A stretch of 7,331 nt of DNA. Origin: Actinomycetes bacterium (GTDB taxonomy: Bacteria; Actinomycetota; Acidimicrobiia; Acidimicrobiales; JAKAOS01). The position numbers and the translations under genes were made by a program. Shown one piece after another: positions 1 through 7,229 of this stretch. The DNA lies in contig JAJYGW010000220.1 of the NCBI GenBank assembly GCA_021790615.1, positions 1 to 7,331 on the forward strand, given 5' to 3'. Position 1 is the stretch's first letter, and every line of letters starts with the position of its first letter. Under the pieces are notes generated by a model. It worked only from the letters and a program-made list of their open reading frames with translations. It was not told where the DNA came from and made no database searches.

Positions 1-49
1 TGGGAGCCGCGCAAGTGCACGGAGACGGCAAGGCCGGCCGGCGCGAGGC

Positions 50-55
50 GGAGGG
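50..55 (+). promoter_or_regulatory. Ribosome binding site deciding the fumC start
   Basis: GGAGGG sits 7 nt before the ATG at 63, a good Shine-Dalgarno match and spacing. The in-frame ATGs at 15 and 96 lack a comparable site. A start at 63 also puts the catalytic residues two positions beyond their Escherichia coli FumC numbers. No promoter is evident in bases 1-62, which may include the tail of an unseen upstream gene. Confidence 0.6.
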
Positions 56-62
56 CGCCGGG

Positions 63-1469
63 ATGGGGAAGGACGACGAGCGGCGACGAGCGAGCATGCG
101 GGTCGAGCACGACTCGATGGGCGAGGTCCTCGTGCCCGCAGACGCCCTCTGGGGCGCGCAGACCCAGCGCGCCGTCGAGAACTTCCCGATCTCCGGCCAG
201 CGGATCGACCGCGCCTTGGTGGCGGCGCTCGCGTCGATCAAGGGTGCGGCGGCCGTGGTCAACGCGGAGCTCGGCGTCGTCGACCCGGAGGTTGCCCGCG
301 CGCTCCACGACGCGGCCGCTGAGGTCGCGGCGGGCCGCCACGACGACCACTTCCCGGTCGACGTCTTCCAGACCGGGTCGGGAACCTCGTCGAACATGAA
401 CATGAACGAGGTGCTCGCCCGCATCGCCAGTGCCCGGCTCGGCCGGGAGATCCGCCCCAACGACGAGCCGAACGCCTCGCAGAGCTCGAACGACGTCTTC
501 CCCTCGGCGATCCACCTCGCTGCGGCGCGTGAGCTGAGCCGGGATCTGCTGCCCGCTCTCGCTCGCCTCGGTGATGCGCTGGCGGAACGCTCCGCGGCCT
601 TCGCCGGGGTCGTCAAGTCCGGACGGACGCACCTCATGGATGCGACGCCGGTCACGCTCGGGCAGGAGTTCGGTGGCTTCGCGGCCCAGGTTCGCCATGG
701 CGCGGAGCGGATCCAGGACTGCCTCCCCCGAGTCGGCGAGCTCCCCCTCGGCGGGACGGCTGTCGGCACCGGGCTCAATGCCCCCCCGGGCTTTGCGGAG
801 CGAGTGATCGCCTGTCTCGCAGCCGAACTCGGTCTCGTGCTCACCGAGGCGCGGGACCACTTCGAGGCGCAGGGCGCCCGCGACGCGCTCGTCGAGTGCT
901 CCGGCGTGCTGCGAACCATCGCGGCCTCGCTGTACAAAGTGGCGAACGACCTGCGCTGGCTCTCGTCGGGACCGCGCTGTGGGCTCGGGGAGATCCACCT
1001 CCCGGACCTCCAGCCCGGCTCTTCGATCATGCCCGGGAAGGTGAACCCGGTCGTCCCCGAGGCGGTCTGCCAAGTCGTCGCCCAGGTCTACGGGAACGAC
1101 GCCGCCGTGGCGTTCGGGGGAGCGGCGGGGAACCTGGAGCTGAACGTGATGCTCCCGGTGATCGCGCGGAACCTGCTCGAGTCGATCCGGCTGCTCGCGG
1201 CGGTGTCGCGGGCGCTGGCCGACAAGTGCGTCTCCGGGATCGTGGCCGACGAGGAGCGCTGCCGGACGTACGCGCTCTCGTCGCCCTCGATCGGTACCAG
1301 CCTCAACCCCTACATCGGCTACGAGGCGGCCGCGAAAGTGATCAAGACGGCTCTCGCCGAGAACAAGGACCTCCGCACCGTGGTCCTGGAGCAGGGCCTG
1401 CTCACCGAGGCCGAGGTCGACAAGGCGCTGGACGTCGTCGCCATGACGCGGGGCGGCATCTTGCGCTGA
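63..1469 (+). CDS. fumC: Class II fumarate hydratase (fumarase C)
   Basis: This enzyme reversibly hydrates fumarate to L-malate in the cytoplasmic TCA cycle; class II fumarases are iron-independent homotetramers. From ATG 63 it is 468 aa (E. coli FumC: 467). Visible motifs are GSGTSSN (105-111), SQSSND (139-144), SGRTH with the catalytic-site His190, and the superfamily signature [11 protein letters not shown] (319-329) carrying the flexible-loop serine, Lys326 and Asn328. The His in SGRTH and the SQSSND wording favour fumarase over aspartase. One oddity is that the position equivalent to E. coli His129, in the second carboxylate (B) site, is Arg131 (RPND instead of HPND). The start rests on a GGAGGG site 7 nt upstream; ATG 96 would also give a near full-length protein. 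The gene is complete. The next gene begins 53 nt after the stop, behind its own putative promoter. Confidence 0.95.
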
Positions 1470-2523: not shown

Positions 2524-2571
2524 GTGCAACTCCTCTCGATCCGAGCCGTCGACCTCGCCGGAGCGCGCTGA
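2524..2571 (+). CDS. Possible 15-codon leaderless leader peptide
   Basis: GTG 2524 lies 6 nt after the TACCAT box, where transcription should begin. It opens a short frame reading (M)QLLSIRAVDLAGAR and ending in TGA 2569-2571. That stop shares its last base with the lyase ATG 2571 (TGATG), the classic arrangement for translational coupling. The lyase Shine-Dalgarno site GGAG (2560-2563) lies inside the peptide's last codons. There is no run of one amino acid that would suggest an attenuation sensor, and no cysteine. The reading is an inference from geometry alone; the frame is also open upstream to 2377, but that longer ORF has no ribosome binding site. Confidence 0.35.
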   Translation: MQLLSIRAVDLAGAR

Positions 2572-3539
2572 TGGGGGCGCGGTCCCGGTTCCTCCCCCGA
2601 CGCTCCTGCCTCGCCGTCCCCGGGTCGTCCGATCGCTTCCTCACCCGCGCGCCGGGCACGGACGCCGACATGTGCTTCCTGGACCTCGAGGACGCGGTCG
2701 CGCCGAGCGAGAAGGAGCCCGCACGTGCCAAGGTCGTGACGGCCGTTCGAGAACTCGACTGGGGCGACAAGGTCCTCTGCGTGCGGGTGAACGCGTGGGA
2801 CACGCGCTGGACCTACCGGGACGTCATCGACGTCGTTGGCGCCGCCGGTCCGCGCCTCGACGAGGTCATGCTCCCCAAGGTGTCGACACCGGCGGAGGTG
2901 GTTGCGCTCGACCTGCTCCTCACCCAGGTCGAGGCCGATGCCGGGCTCTCCCGTGGTCACATCGGGCTCGAGGTGCAGATCGAGACGACGCTCGGGTTGA
3001 TCAACGTCGAGGCGATCTGCACCGCATCGCCCAGGATCGAGGCGGTGGTCTTCGGACCGGCAGACTTCGCGGCGTCGATGGAGATGCCGGTCCTGACCGG
3101 CGGTGTGGAGATCCCGAACTACCCAGGCGACCACTTCCACTATGTCCTCGCGAAGATCCTCATGGCCGGACGCGCCGCAGGGATCCAGGTCGTTGACGGT
3201 CCCTACCTGAAGGTGCGGGATCTCGAGGGCCTCGCAGCGTACTGCACGCGGAGCGCGACGCTCGGCTACGACGGCAAGTGGGCCTTGCACCCCGACCAGG
3301 TGGCGGTGGTGAACGAGGCCTTCTCGCCGACGCAGGAGCAGTTCGAGCGAGCGGTCGCGATCCTCGACGCCTACCGGGCCGCAACGGAGGGTGACGGTCG
3401 GGGGGCGGTCATGTTCGGCGACGAGATGATCGACGAGGCGAGCCGGAAGATGGCGGAGAAGTTCGTCACCCGGGGTACTCGGGCCGGCCGGGTCCGGCTC
3501 CCGCGTGCCGAACCGGACGGGGCGTCCCCGGGCGGGTGA
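2571..3539 (+). CDS. HpcH/HpaI-CitE family CoA-ester lyase (malyl-CoA lyase-like)
   Basis: The 322-aa protein belongs to the CitE/malyl-CoA lyase branch of the HpcH/HpaI aldolases, Mg2+-dependent TIM barrels that cleave or form C-C bonds in CoA esters. Known substrates include L-malyl-CoA (to acetyl-CoA and glyoxylate), beta-methylmalyl-CoA and citramalyl-CoA. Visible motifs are PGSSDRF near the N-terminus, FLDLEDAV, RVNAWDTRW with Arg72, QIETTLGL with the metal ligand Glu138, FGPADFAAS with the metal ligand Asp165, and YDGKWALHPDQV near the C-terminus. These residues sit 3-4 positions before their Rhodobacter malyl-CoA lyase counterparts, and the length matches that family. ATG 2571 has GGAG at 2560-2563, 7 nt away. 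The substrate cannot be fixed from sequence; a link to the nearby fumarase through malate and glyoxylate metabolism is inference. The C-terminal 20 residues or so (basic, Pro/Gly-rich) look disordered. Confidence 0.85.
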   Translation: MGARSRFLPRRSCLAVPGSSDRFLTRAPGTDADMCFLDLEDAVAPSEKEPARAKVVTAVRELDWGDKVLCVRVNAWDTRWTYRDVIDVVGAAGPRLDEVMLPKVSTPAEVVALDLLLTQVEADAGLSRGHIGLEVQIETTLGLINVEAICTASPRIEAVVFGPADFAASMEMPVLTGGVEIPNYPGDHFHYVLAKILMAGRAAGIQVVDGPYLKVRDLEGLAAYCTRSATLGYDGKWALHPDQVAVVNEAFSPTQEQFERAVAILDAYRAATEGDGRGAVMFGDEMIDEASRKMAEKFVTRGTRAGRVRLPRAEPDGASPGG

Positions 3540-3704: not shown

Positions 3705-4418
3705 ATGATCCACGAGGTGGACGAGGCGATCCGCAAGATCGTCACCGACGAGGTGCTTGCCGGGACGGAGCTGACGGTTGTCTTCGACGCGCCGACGAAA
3801 GACTGGGCGGCGAAGCGGGTCGCCCCGGTGATCGACGCCTATCTCTACGACATCCGTGAGGAAGTGGCACGTCGGAGCGTCGGGGTTCGTGCCGAACGCG
3901 ACCAGCGTGGCGTGGTCGTCGCGGAGCGTCAGCCGATGCGCTACTACCGCCTCGCATACCTGCTCACGGCGTGGGCGCAGCGGCCCGAGGACGAGCACCG
4001 CCTCCTGTCGGCGCTGCTGGCCTGTTTCGTGCGGAGGGAGGCAATCGCGCCGGAGGAGCTCCCCGGGGCGCTCGGCGAGCAGGCACTGCCGGTACGCGTC
4101 GCCGTCGCGGCTCCGCCGAAGGACGACCGCCAGGTCTCCGAGGTGTGGTCGGCCATGGGGGGCGAACTGCGGGCGGCGCTCGACCTGGTGCTGACCGTGC
4201 CGGTCGAGGTCGGGCGGCTGGTCGTGCCGGCACCGCCGGTCGAGCAGCCGCTCACCCTCGTGGTGCAGGGCGCGGGGGGCGGCGAGTCGATCCAGGGCCG
4301 CAGGCGCGCGACACCGGACGAGAGCCGAGAGCGCCCTGCCGATGCCGATGCCGATGCGCCAGAGCCGCCCGCCCAGCGCGACGCGCGACCAGCCGCTCGG
4401 CGGCGCCGACAGGGATGA
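3705..4418 (+). CDS. DUF4255 / Pvc16-type eCIS tail terminator (sheath cap) protein
   Basis: The 237-aa protein matches the DUF4255 (Pvc16 N-terminal) family. In Photorhabdus virulence cassettes and the antifeeding prophage this protein caps the distal end of the sheath and tube of the contractile injection particle. Signature segments are the short N-terminal helix MIHEVDEAIRKIV, FDAPTKDWAAKR (about 30-41), the LYDIREEVARR segment, and RYYRLAYLLTAWAQRPEDEHRLL, followed by a Val/Pro-rich strand region to about residue 190. The last 45 residues are low-complexity, with an ADADADA run and an Arg-rich end, and look disordered; they are probably not part of the conserved fold. The ATG has GAGAGG 8 nt upstream; TTG 3687 is a weaker alternative. 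The stop TGA overlaps an ATG (ATGA, 4415-4418), and the AAA+ gene starts 10 nt on, so the two are surely co-transcribed. Confidence 0.85.
   Translation: MIHEVDEAIRKIVTDEVLAGTELTVVFDAPTKDWAAKRVAPVIDAYLYDIREEVARRSVGVRAERDQRGVVVAERQPMRYYRLAYLLTAWAQRPEDEHRLLSALLACFVRREAIAPEELPGALGEQALPVRVAVAAPPKDDRQVSEVWSAMGGELRAALDLVLTVPVEVGRLVVPAPPVEQPLTLVVQGAGGGESIQGRRRATPDESRERPADADADAPEPPAQRDARPAARRRRQG
4338..4355 (+). repeat. Three tandem GCCGAT hexamers inside the DUF4255 gene
   Basis: Three perfect GCCGAT copies encode Ala-Asp repeats in the disordered tail. Gain or loss of one unit keeps the reading frame, so tail length may vary among strains. Confidence 0.8.
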
Positions 4419-4435
4419 GCGGACCGGGATGAGCG
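4412..4435 (+). repeat. Duplicated start region GGGATGAGCG with two ATGA overlaps
   Basis: GGGATGAGCG occurs at 4412-4421 and 4426-4435, offset by 14 nt. The first ATG (4415) overlaps the DUF4255 stop and opens a five-codon frame, MSGPG. Its TGA (4430-4432) overlaps the second ATG (4429), the start of the AAA+ protein. The arrangement would allow termination-reinitiation from one gene to the next. No strong Shine-Dalgarno site sits at optimal distance from 4429; AGGGA at 4411-4415 is 13 nt away. Confidence 0.6.
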
Positions 4436-6441
4436 ACGTTCGTGCCCGGCGCGCCGCTCGCCCAGGCACGGCGCTCCGGGCCGTCGACGAGCTCGCGGCG
4501 CGGGTGCGACTCGCGGTGGAGGCGATGCGGGCGGCCGATCCCGCGGTCGACGACCCCTTCCGAGGGTTGTACCTGTCGGAGGAGGAGGTGCTCGCACTCC
4601 TCGACCGCCCGCCCTCGGGCGGCCCGGGTGCCCCGGCCGTGGATGCCGACCGGCTCGGACTGCTCGCGACCCGCTTCGACTTGACGGCGTTCGACGTCGA
4701 GATCCTCGTGGTCGCGCTCGCGCCCGATGTCGACGCCCGTTTCGAGCGCTTCTACGGGTACCTACACGACGACGTGACCCGCCGGCGCGCCACGATCGGG
4801 CTGGCATTCGGACTCGCCGGCGTCGCCCCGTCGGACCCGGTGGCGCGTGGTCGGGTCGCCCCGGGTGCCCCTCTCATCGACGGCGGGCTGGTCGTGGTCG
4901 AAGAGCCGGAGCGTCCGTTCCTCTCGCGCTCGCTCGCCGTGCCGGAGCGGGTGACGGCATGGTGCCTGGGGGACGAGGGTGTCGACTGGCAGGTCGAGGG
5001 GGCTTCGTGGCCGGTCGAGCCTCGGCGCGGGGCGGAGGCGGACCGGCTGGCCGTCGTGCTCCGACGCGGGAGCGGGCTGCTCTACCTCCGTGAGCGGCCG
5101 GGGGCCGCCGGTGCGGATCTGGCGGCCGGCGTGCTCGCTGCGGCCGGGCTCTCGCCGCTCGTGGTCGACGTGCGGAGCTTCGGGGTCGAGGAGGACCCCC
5201 TCGGCGCCGTCCGGCACCTCGCCCGTGAGGCCCGGCTCCTCGGGGCGGGGCTCGCGCTCGGGCCCGTCGACGCCCTGGTGCCGCGCGCCCTCGGGGCACT
5301 GCGGATGCTCGCCGATGCCAGCCTGCCGCTCGTGCTCTTCGGAGCCGAGGCGTGGGATCCCGCCTGGGCGCGACGGGTGCCCGCCCAGGTGGAGGTTGTG
5401 CCGCCCGACGCGCTCGAGCAGGCGGCGATCTGGACCGGTGCCCTCGGCGAGGCGGGGCCGGCGCTCGCCGAGGCGCTCCCGGGCTACCGGCTCGCCGGGT
5501 GGCAGGTCCGTCGTGCGGCAGTTGCTGCCCGCCAGGTCGCCCTGCTCGGCGGTGGCGAGCTCGGCGAAGCCGAACTCCGCCAAGGCGCGGCCCAGCAGAG
5601 CGCGGGGGGTCTCACCCGCCTCGCGCGTCGGATCGACCCGGCCGTGGGCTGGGGCGACCTGGTCCTCGCACCGGGCGTCGTACGCCAACTCCGTGAGCTG
5701 GTGGAGCGTGCGAGGCTCCGGGGCAGGGTGCTCGGCGAGTGGCGGATGCGGCCCGGTGGGGGCCGCGGGACCGGGGTCGTCGCCCTGTTCGCGGGTGACC
5801 CCGGAACGGGCAAGACGATGTCTGCCGAGGTGATCGCCGGTGCCCTCGGCCTCGAGCTCTACGCGGTGAACCTCGCCACGGTGGTCGACAAGTACGTGGG
5901 CGAGACCGAGAAGAACCTCGAGCGGATCTTCGTCGAAGCGGCCGGGGTCAACGGGCTGCTGCTGTTCGACGAGGCGGATGCCCTGTTCGGGAAGCGTTCC
6001 GAAGTGCGCGACGCACACGACCGCTACGCCAACGTCGAGACCTCCTATCTCCTCCAGCGCCTCGAGAGCTTCGACGGGCTCGCCGTCCTCTCGACCAACC
6101 TCCGGGCGAACCTGGACGAAGCGTTCACGAGGCGACTCGACCTGGTCATCGAGTTCCCCGAGCCGGACGTCCGGCTGCGTCGTGAGCTCTGGGACCGTTG
6201 CCTCGGGAGCGTCCTGCCTCGGGCAGCCGACGTCGACCTCGACTTCTGCGCACGGGCGTTCAGCCTCTCCGGTGGTGGGATCCGGTCCGCGTCGATCACC
6301 GCGGCCTATCTCGCGGCGGCGGAGGGCGGCCCCGTCCGGATGGCACAGCTCGTCCGGGGCGCGTACCTCGAGTATCGAAAAGCCGGTCGCCTCACGCTCG
6401 AGTCGGATTTCGGGCCGTGGCTCGCCGAGGTCGTGGGGTGA
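4429..6441 (+). CDS. AAA+ ATPase of the eCIS Pvc15/Afp15 type
   Basis: The 670-aa protein has three parts. An acidic helical N-terminus (1-65) is followed by a winged-helix-like domain (about 70-130) of the kind that precedes AAA modules in this family. Next comes a degenerate AAA-like module (about 205-380), where the expected P-loop reads GAAGAD (225-230), with no Lys. Last is an intact AAA+ module with Walker A GDPGTGKT (456-463, Lys462), Walker B LLLFDEAD (Asp514, Glu515), sensor-1 Asn557, arginine-finger candidates Arg568 and Arg569 in FTRRLD, and sensor-2 Arg619 in GGGIRSAS. The hydrolytic residues are all present, so an active ATPase is expected. Every studied eCIS locus class carries such an ATPase; it is thought to help particle assembly or cargo loading, but the mechanism is unsettled. 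The upstream in-frame ATG 4342 lies inside DUF4255, so I chose 4429. There is no signal peptide or membrane segment, so the protein should be cytoplasmic. Confidence 0.9.
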   Translation: MSDVRARRAARPGTALRAVDELAARVRLAVEAMRAADPAVDDPFRGLYLSEEEVLALLDRPPSGGPGAPAVDADRLGLLATRFDLTAFDVEILVVALAPDVDARFERFYGYLHDDVTRRRATIGLAFGLAGVAPSDPVARGRVAPGAPLIDGGLVVVEEPERPFLSRSLAVPERVTAWCLGDEGVDWQVEGASWPVEPRRGAEADRLAVVLRRGSGLLYLRERPGAAGADLAAGVLAAAGLSPLVVDVRSFGVEEDPLGAVRHLAREARLLGAGLALGPVDALVPRALGALRMLADASLPLVLFGAEAWDPAWARRVPAQVEVVPPDALEQAAIWTGALGEAGPALAEALPGYRLAGWQVRRAAVAARQVALLGGGELGEAELRQGAAQQSAGGLTRLARRIDPAVGWGDLVLAPGVVRQLRELVERARLRGRVLGEWRMRPGGGRGTGVVALFAGDPGTGKTMSAEVIAGALGLELYAVNLATVVDKYVGETEKNLERIFVEAAGVNGLLLFDEADALFGKRSEVRDAHDRYANVETSYLLQRLESFDGLAVLSTNLRANLDEAFTRRLDLVIEFPEPDVRLRRELWDRCLGSVLPRAADVDLDFCARAFSLSGGGIRSASITAAYLAAAEGGPVRMAQLVRGAYLEYRKAGRLTLESDFGPWLAEVVG

Positions 6442-6475
6442 CGGGCCGGGATCCCCTGCGCGGCCGGAAAGGCCC

Positions 6476-6484
6476 TGGTATGTT
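6476..6484 (+). promoter_or_regulatory. Putative extended -10 promoter before the DUF4157 gene
   Basis: TGG followed by TATGTT makes an extended -10 element (TGn plus TANNNT). The -35 at 17 nt spacing is poor (CTGCGC, 6456-6461). A short GGCC-GGAAA-GGCC hairpin (6462-6474) lies just upstream. Transcription would start near 6491, giving a leader of about 80 nt before ATG 6570. Confidence 0.4.
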
Positions 6485-6512
6485 CGGGAAGCTGGCTCGG
6501 TGACTGCCACGG

Positions 6513-6532
6513 CGTTCGAGCGTGGTCGAACG
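6513..6532. promoter_or_regulatory. Perfect 7-bp inverted repeat in the DUF4157 gene leader
   Basis: CGTTCGA (6513-6519) and TCGAACG (6526-6532) flank a 6-nt spacer. The element lies about 22 nt after the predicted transcription start and about 37 nt before ATG 6570. It could be a repressor operator or an RNA hairpin. The half-sites resemble those of actinobacterial LexA boxes but are in swapped order, so I do not call it an SOS box. Confidence 0.45.
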
Positions 6533-6560
6533 GCGGGAGCGCGTTGCCGTGCGTCGGCCT

Positions 6561-6566
6561 GGAGGG
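6561..6566 (+). promoter_or_regulatory. Ribosome binding site of the DUF4157 gene
   Basis: GGAGGG ends 3 nt before ATG 6570, which is close but usable. GTG 6549, with GGGAG at 6535-6539 (9 nt away), is a real alternative start and would add 7 residues. GTG 6522 would begin inside the inverted repeat and is less likely. Confidence 0.5.
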
Positions 6567-6569
6567 CGC

Positions 6570-7229
6570 ATGGGTACGACCGGTAGGAGAGCGTTCGAAG
6601 AGTTCGACCCCCGCATCGGGCGACGTCACGAGCGGCTCCGCCCGCAGGCGAGCGCCAGCGAGAGCCTGTCGAGCGCGCGGCCCGTGGTGGAGGGCCGGCC
6701 CGGCGCGATCCTCGCGCTCCAGCGACAGGTGGGGAATCGGGCGGTCCAGCGGCTCCTCGGCGGAGCCGAGCTCGACGAGTCCGAGGAGTCCGACGAGATC
6801 CAACGCGTCGGCGCAGCCGGCGGGGAGCAAGCGGCACCAGCGAACCCTGCGAGCGCCCTCGTTCGCGAGGCGCTCTCGCTCCCGGGTGCGCCGGCCGACG
6901 GGCAGGCGCTCGCCCAGGCGCGCCGAGCCGGCGCAGCCGTGCCGCCGATGCGTGTCGTCACCGGGCCTGTCGCCGACGCCGCCGCCAAGGCGGTCGGCGG
7001 GTCGATGTTCACGGTGGGGAGCAAGATCGTGGCGCAGGACGGCGCCTACCGACCTGGGTCGCCCACCGGTCAGCGCGACCTCATGCACGAGCTCTATCAC
7101 GGTTACCAGCAGGCGACCGGACCAGTCGCCGGGACCTCCTGGGGCGACGGGCTCTCGGTTTCGGACCCGAGCGACCGCTTCGAGCTGGAGGCGGAGGAGT
7201 TCGCTCACCGGGCGGCCGGCGGCCACTGA
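6570..7229 (+). CDS. Small DUF4157 protein with HELYH zinc-protease motif, eCIS-linked
   Basis: The 219-aa protein has a polar, probably disordered N-terminus with the segment LQRQVGNRAVQRLL (50-63). That LQRxxGNxAVxRLL pattern is common at the front of eCIS-linked DUF4157 proteins. An acidic linker (DESEESDE) follows, and then a divergent DUF4157 domain (about 95-185). It matches the family at VTGPVADAAA, FTVGSKIV, AYRPGSPTGQ and LMHELYHGYQQ; His173, Glu174 and His177 are the expected zinc and catalytic residues, and the later FELEAEEFAHR may supply the third ligand. The usual family text is LLAHELTHVVQQ, so this copy differs at Thr-to-Tyr and Val-Val-to-Gly-Tyr. The chain stops soon after the domain: no toxin or effector domain follows. 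It may be a maturation protease or a small cargo; neither is shown. It sits 128 nt after the AAA+ gene, possibly with its own promoter. Confidence 0.8.
   Translation: MGTTGRRAFEEFDPRIGRRHERLRPQASASESLSSARPVVEGRPGAILALQRQVGNRAVQRLLGGAELDESEESDEIQRVGAAGGEQAAPANPASALVREALSLPGAPADGQALAQARRAGAAVPPMRVVTGPVADAAAKAVGGSMFTVGSKIVAQDGAYRPGSPTGQRDLMHELYHGYQQATGPVAGTSWGDGLSVSDPSDRFELEAEEFAHRAAGGH

Follow-up and report, generated by a model that had tools for sequence, protein, structure and literature searches.

A Streptomyces-type contractile injection system in an acidimicrobial genome, with a predicted phage-type frameshift and a candidate disordered length ruler

The stretch of DNA analysed here (7,331 bases, hereafter the window) marks the left border of a contractile injection system (CIS) cluster in an uncultured acidimicrobial actinobacterium. 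The cluster is complete and of a known kind, the Streptomyces type (IId), an assignment made by similarity and gene order. Just to the right of the window, at the end of a chaperone-like gene (g26), the cluster carries a signal that would direct a phage-type -1 frameshift; computational support for this is good and we consider the frameshift very probable. The product of a long gene downstream of g26 is mostly disordered, has a conserved motif at its C-terminus and is proposed as the length ruler (tape measure) of the particle, a hypothesis toward which we lean slightly. The explanation as a whole, a IId CIS with a CisA trigger, a frameshift in g26 and a long-protein ruler, seems probable to us.

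The first CIS gene in the window encodes a Pvc16/Cis16-type cap protein of 237 aa (3705..4418, + strand, alternative start TTG 3687; Pvc16_N PF14065, E=2.1e-37). It is followed by a Pvc15/Cis15-type AAA+ ATPase (4429..6441, + strand; AAA PF00004, E=2.5e-21; WHD PF22977, E=8.3e-20), which was given the start ATG 4429 and has an earlier in-frame ATG at 4342, and by a small DUF4157 (eCIS_core) protein (6522..7229, + strand; PF13699, E=6.7e-13). The HExxH motif of the latter is intact (HELYH) and its start is uncertain among GTG 6522, ATG 6570 and GTG 6684. All genes of the window are intact, the three CIS genes are consecutive on the + strand, and all Pfam matches of the window proteins exceed the curated cut-offs. 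The first-pass annotation had described a DUF4255/Pvc16 cap, a Pvc15 ATPase and a DUF4157 protein in series, and the Pfam matches and open frames bear this out. It had also placed the start of the CIS after metabolic genes, which agrees with the presence upstream of fumC (fumarase C; 15..1469, + strand; PF00206, E=1e-94; PF10415, E=4.3e-19) and a gene for an HpcH/HpaI-type aldolase/lyase (2571..3539, + strand, start ATG 2571 or GTG 2499; PF03328, E=3.3e-43), both metabolic and outside the CIS. Between these two lies a gene for a 277-aa protein of no clear family (g19).

Genes outside the window were read on contig C144 (45,618 bases) of genome G000, where the coordinate is that of the window plus 18779; coordinates given from here on refer to this contig unless marked otherwise. 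The window corresponds to C144:18780-26110 with 24 mismatches in 7331 bases, which makes the G000 assembly either that of a very close relative or a different version. Five of these differences lie within window bases 1-69, perhaps an assembly-end effect. Gene starts are approximate, having been set by a codon-usage-based caller.

The sheath gene (26198-27727; PF04984, E=5e-24; PF17482) starts 88 bases beyond the end of the window. It is followed, like it on the + strand, by a first tube of the gp19 type (27836-28279; PF06841), g26 (28276-28782), DUF6760 (28779-28937; PF20546, E=2.4e-13), a proline- and alanine-rich long DUF4157 protein of 966 aa (28953-31853; eCIS_core at residues 673-742, E=9.7e-16), a second tube (31862-32293), a LysM hub (CIS_tube; 32341-33036; PF19266), a spike (33045-34814; PF04717, PF05954), gp25 (34837-35235), the wedge proteins Cis11 (Baseplate_J; 35232-37202) and Cis12 (Tail_P2_I; 37243-37794), and a CisA-like protein of 840 aa with zinc-ribbon and F5/8-type domains (37791-40313). 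Structural genes had been expected to the right, and sheath, tubes, hub, spike, gp25 and wedges do lie directly downstream, with the sheath and both tubes inside about 20 kb. By Pfam the core set of sheath, two tubes, Cis7, 8, 9, 11, 12, 15 and 16 is present, and the sheath is the single Phage_sheath_1 match in the whole G000 genome. Two regulator genes on the - strand close the region, one of the BTAD type (40300-43257) and one of the LuxR type (43418-44077). A BTAD-type regulator also stands beside cisA on the opposite strand in genome G008 (L138:3048-6011) and may thus belong to the cluster. The LuxR regulator is here at the far end of the cluster, and matching regulators precede cis16 in many relatives.

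The assignment to the Streptomyces type rests first on the sheath. Its best PDB matches were 8bky/9gtp (E=6.4e-205), which we take to be the S. coelicolor sheath entries; Pvc2 (E=9.8e-53) and Afp2 (E=9.6e-47) were far more distant. The sheath of genome G566 matches the typed 8bky sequence without a difference over 529 residues, and CisA there has 468 aa, the length given for S. coelicolor CisA (PMC12237407). Related sheath loci, of which 80 of 245 were kept, came first from acidimicrobial and other actinobacterial MAGs and then from Actinosynnema, Amycolatopsis, Streptomyces and others. In one Streptomyces locus (L032), sheath, tube, g26 and DUF6760 occur twice in tandem.

We also examined the idea that the CIS is an accessory block joined to a stable neighbourhood. 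The sheath was matched in 7 of 41 genomes searched, our own included (four whole-length at 69-100%, one at 51%, two partial), and was absent from both same-family genomes searched. HpcH was found in 31 of the 41 genomes; in the 11 relatives for which 1.5 kb on each side of HpcH were examined, cis16 never followed it. G032, which has a CIS, carries HpcH on contig C56 and the CIS on contig C71, and g19 precedes HpcH in 4 of the 11 relatives. The rarity of the sheath and the absence of cis16 after HpcH support the reading that the cluster was inserted next to a neighbourhood of which part has been retained. GC content is even (left flank 0.713, CIS 0.728, right flank 0.736) and gives no sign of a recent arrival, which speaks against recent joining. 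The partial sheath matches (35-57% identity), on contig C29 of G009 and contigs C120 and C59 of G020, point to further contractile systems or remnants of phages in these two relatives.

We inspected the gap between DUF6760 and the second tube in the 56 loci where both were found. Of the 56 slot frames, 33 satisfied a pattern filter and served to build a profile of the C-terminal motif. This profile matched in 54 of the 80 loci; the frames concerned have 721-1283 codons, with P, A, G, S and T abundant. Three loci missed by the profile (L010, L013 and L031) have a long frame as well, that of L031 being 1354 codons long. Long frames in plasmid CIS of Nostoc, Rhodococcus and Deinococcus close with this motif as well; in Nostoc and Deinococcus aquaticus the motif-bearing frame is placed after the second tube. 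In G566 the long protein (L135:6455-10591) has 1378 aa with 20 PVQR/AVQR motifs, several of them at a spacing of 28-30 residues. Searches of Pfam, NCBIfam and PHROGs gave no tape-measure profile match for the long protein, which is not the usual coiled coil.

The position of the gene recalls P2-like phages, in which the tube is followed by the E/E+E' frameshift and then by the tape measure, and tail length follows the length of the latter (PMC3091744). The P2-like tape measures of 842, 920 and 1075 aa go with tails of 140, 150 and 160 nm, or 0.15-0.17 nm per residue (PMC3091744). S. coelicolor particles are all 268 nm long, and the paper describing them calls the tape measure gene absent (PMC12237407), as do a second paper on S. 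coelicolor (PMC10066040) and one on the S. lividans cluster (PMC10286715). Dividing 268 nm by the 1378 aa of the G566 protein gives 0.19 nm per residue, a value from a single matched pair; at this rate the acidimicrobial particle would measure about 190 nm. Deinococcus frames have 1535-1999 codons, and the 365 nm particle comes from another species, Deinococcus aquatilis. The particles of Roseiflexus castenholzii (217 nm) and Calidithermus chliarophilus (238 nm) had no matching sequences to set beside them. The Nostoc plasmid CIS was at first taken to represent the 119 nm Anabaena particle, a pairing that was given up since the Nostoc sheath lies closer to 8bky (E=3e-98) than to All3325 (E=1.6e-42).

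A rival we take seriously, while doubting it, is that the long protein is a cargo or cargo adaptor and that length is set otherwise, for example by an Sle1-like coiled-coil protein. DUF4157 marks cargo, and eCIS_core is found in the long protein here and in 5 of the 10 long proteins scanned. A published effector, Tme of S. davawensis, shows a relation to tape measures (PMC11126660), and Sle1 has been termed tape-measure-like (PMC13277306). By contrast, the other five scanned proteins, in which DUF4157 was not matched, still keep the slot and the C-terminal motif, and Sle1 homologues are reported from 62 of 754 Streptomyces species, a share too small for a general ruler (PMC13277306 for the counts). 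The two roles can also be served by one chain. The ruler proposed for this organism would be such a case, carrying its DUF4157 cargo core on the same polypeptide. The long protein could also be an assembly factor.

The gene that precedes DUF6760 is similar to those for phage tail assembly chaperones. The product of g26 had no Pfam or NCBIfam match, nor had the distant chaperone-like proteins; against PHROGs it matched phrog_508, 'tail assembly chaperone' (E=1.3e-8). Fold searches were ambiguous and do not tell chaperone types apart: with the g26 model, Foldseek returned nothing from the PDB at E<=0.001 (YqbN, 3klu, reached just E=4.3), and in a viral fold library T4-like baseplate hub assembly proteins came top with TM ~0.45, above tape-measure chaperones. 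Among the 80 loci, g26 was found in 78 and DUF6760 in 76, the latter in the -1 frame in 76 of 76. An overlapping stop and start would suffice as the cause of this constant frame.

At the end of g26 stands the heptamer G_GGG_GAA (28770-28776, + strand). When the g26-DUF6760 join was compared in 77 rows (our own and those of 76 loci, two cut ones being excluded), GGG was present in 76 and GAA in 72, while in the bodies of the chaperone genes GGG makes up 0.27 of the Gly codons and GAA 0.136 of the Glu codons. Further genome and plasmid loci enlarged the set to 108 entries, 104 of them distinct. G_GGG_NNN was in register in 97 of these entries (94 of the distinct ones), the last triplet of the 94 being GAA in 84, GGA in 6, CGA in 2 and GAG in 2; counted by lineage (below 70% identity), the site occurs in 16 of 26. 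As a control, 571 ends of other CIS genes were examined over their last seven codons; GGGGGAA stood in register in 2 of them and any G_GGG in 48. The site is absent from 10 of the 104 distinct chaperone genes. In six of these loci (L091, L111, L113, L114, L117 and L123) DUF6760 has its own ATG or GTG, so that fusion is not universal; for the other four, all from Deinococcus, the DUF6760 profile search found nothing. The same heptamer is associated with about a thousand -1 frameshifts in actinophage chaperone genes (PMC10885494) and occurs in corynephage phi16 (PMC5506516).

Just downstream of the slip site lies an inverted repeat of about 10-12 pairs, GACGTACGCG with CGCGTACGTC, the arms of which fall at 28779-28790 and 28814-28825 (+ strand). 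Both arms are coding, so the hairpin was tested against synonymous shuffles that kept the protein and the codon usage, the latter being taken, beyond the first 80 loci, from the short chaperone gene alone. Mean z was -2.56 over 68 distinct loci, 90% of which were below -1, and three control places gave -0.67, -0.91 and -1.27 in the same test. The weak values were those of L011 (-0.22), L119 (-0.93), L015 (-0.96) and L017 (-0.98). A plain dinucleotide shuffle of 13 sequences gave a mean z of -1.44. The covariation score, computed on 37 hand-chosen sequences of the 68 distinct ones (L119, L122 and L125 omitted), was 0.105, compared with 0.044 for shuffled and at most 0.063 for slid alignments, with 13 cells changed on both sides; this score is inflated, since the structure was derived from the same sequences. 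Slid versions reach the same numbers of double-change pairs (5, also at slide -2) and of pair types (9). Inspection by eye shows a shifted register for the stems of L120 and L124. As far as the sequences go, codon choice does not explain the hairpin.

These data support the idea that ribosomes finishing g26 would slip back one base on G_GGG_GAA, aided by the hairpin. Slippage would yield some g26-DUF6760 fusion besides g26 alone, as with gpG/gpGT or gpE/gpE+E' in phages, and both forms would handle the product of the next gene, the long disordered protein. We think it unlikely that the cluster is instead an ordinary Streptomyces-type CIS without a frameshift, in which translation of DUF6760 starts by coupling and the G run acts as a weak ribosome-binding site. 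For coupling speak the GTG (79) or ATG (7) found at this place in 86 of the 94 distinct site-bearing loci, as well as the normality of start/stop overlaps and the fact that coupled re-initiation requires no Shine-Dalgarno sequence; DUF6760 of our own locus has a GTG overlapping the g26 stop, from which re-initiation is possible. By contrast, the DUF6760 frame lacks an ATG, GTG or TTG start in 8 of the 94 loci. These eight span four phyla: Actinomycetota (L009, L010, L106, L109 and L120), Cyanobacteriota (L119), Bacillota (L122) and Pseudomonadota (L124). Four of them (L009, L010, L106 and L109) have a CTG, which could start weakly, and L119 (Nostoc), L120 (Rhodococcus), L122 (Paenibacillus) and L124 (Paraburkholderia), in which the chaperone stop is TAG or TAA, have nothing usable. 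Of 68 distinct loci, 2 have AGGA, GGAG or GAGG upstream, as compared to 32 of 35 sheath starts, and the chaperone codon frequencies given above also weigh against coupling. On the strength of the 2 Shine-Dalgarno tetramers in 68 loci and the 8 startless frames in 94, the ribosome-binding-site reading of the G run was rejected as the main explanation.

The 840-aa protein next to Cis12 is, by its sequence, a CisA homologue. It has zinc ribbons, a long disordered part, one membrane span (hydrophobic at ~657) and an F5/8-type C-terminal domain. This domain matches that of the Streptomyces homologue (L135) at E=4e-9 with 26% identity over 182 columns, and the domain set is the same. The protein also matches NCBIfam NADase_discoid above the cut-off (E=3.9e-19), and in the Streptomyces CisA (L135) NADase_transloc was matched weakly, beside a zinc ribbon. 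The C-terminus of the homologue is an F5/8-type, NADase-type glycan-binding domain, of which a related family is weakly matched in Streptomyces CisA. The paper on S. coelicolor CisA likens its domain to substrate-binding domains and describes a bitopic membrane protein that is required for firing (PMC12237407). No tail-fibre family was matched by Pfam among the genes scanned from cap to CisA, where remote fibre folds are possible, and no PAAR gene was recognised in the cluster.

A CisA homologue together with the lack of a recognisable tail fibre suggests a cytoplasmic, membrane-triggered device over a released one. By analogy with S. coelicolor, we infer a cytoplasmic location of the device and firing at the membrane of the producing cell itself. 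The sheath would contract round the gp19-type tube on a Cis1b/7/8/9/11/12-type baseplate, with Cis16 as the cap, and the CisA-like protein would probably tether or trigger the device at the membrane. The name 'extracellular' CIS in the first-pass annotation is apt for the family, but the anatomy is that of the cytoplasmic Streptomyces device and not of Afp/PVC. A classical released system of the Afp/PVC type that attacks other cells, with which the cluster has core genes and DUF4157 proteins in common, is highly unlikely, given a sheath so much nearer to 8bky than to Afp2 or Pvc2, a CisA homologue in the fibre's place and no tail-fibre match among the annotated genes from cap to CisA.

In the open literature searched we found no paper on DUF6760 and no report of a frameshift in CIS, where a review on phage tails was the match, and a search for a disordered tape measure in CIS gave phage papers only; the frameshift signal and the candidate disordered ruler are thus unreported in that literature, and reports elsewhere are possible. 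We are evenly divided on a wider proposal, that CIS of this lineage, Streptomyces included, may keep the full phage length-control cassette of chaperone frameshift with hairpin, DUF6760 extension and proline-rich disordered ruler, the acidimicrobial ruler having gained DUF4157. The uniform S. coelicolor particles (PMC12237407) raise the question of how a CIS keeps a fixed length without a tape measure. If the ruler is real, it would be of a new type, disordered and not helical, and particle length would be programmable by gene length. If the frameshift is real, a phage-inherited recoding would have been kept in bacterial chromosomes after domestication of the tail, and the annotation of DUF6760 genes would change.

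As a comparison, the S. coelicolor CIS (IId) shares the sheath, two tubes, Cis7/8/9/11/12/15/16 and a CisA right after Cis12, has no recognised fibre or PAAR, and also contains the chaperone-like gene, DUF6760 and a long protein. It differs in that here the sheath gene comes after those of cap and ATPase on one strand, with a small DUF4157 gene between, the long protein has 966 aa with DUF4157 (1378 aa and no Pfam match in G566), and CisA has 840 aa (468 there). The small DUF4157 protein of the window lies just upstream of the sheath, as does Sle2 of S. lividans; unlike the Sle1/Sle2 pair, it has no large helical Sle1-like neighbour and adjoins the ATPase and sheath genes. Tme of S. davawensis resembles the long protein in being the largest frame, immediately upstream of baseplate genes, with DUF4157 (PMC11126660), whereas its transmembrane segments, coiled coils and nuclease domain had no match in the long protein. 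With the phage chaperone frameshifts (lambda G/GT, P2 E/E+E' and actinophage GGGGGAA) the cluster shares a chaperone-like gene after the tube, an in-register heptamer two codons ahead of the stop, a -1 frame extension and a long gene next. It departs from them in that the DUF6760 frame often has its own GTG, the fusion here being a prediction.
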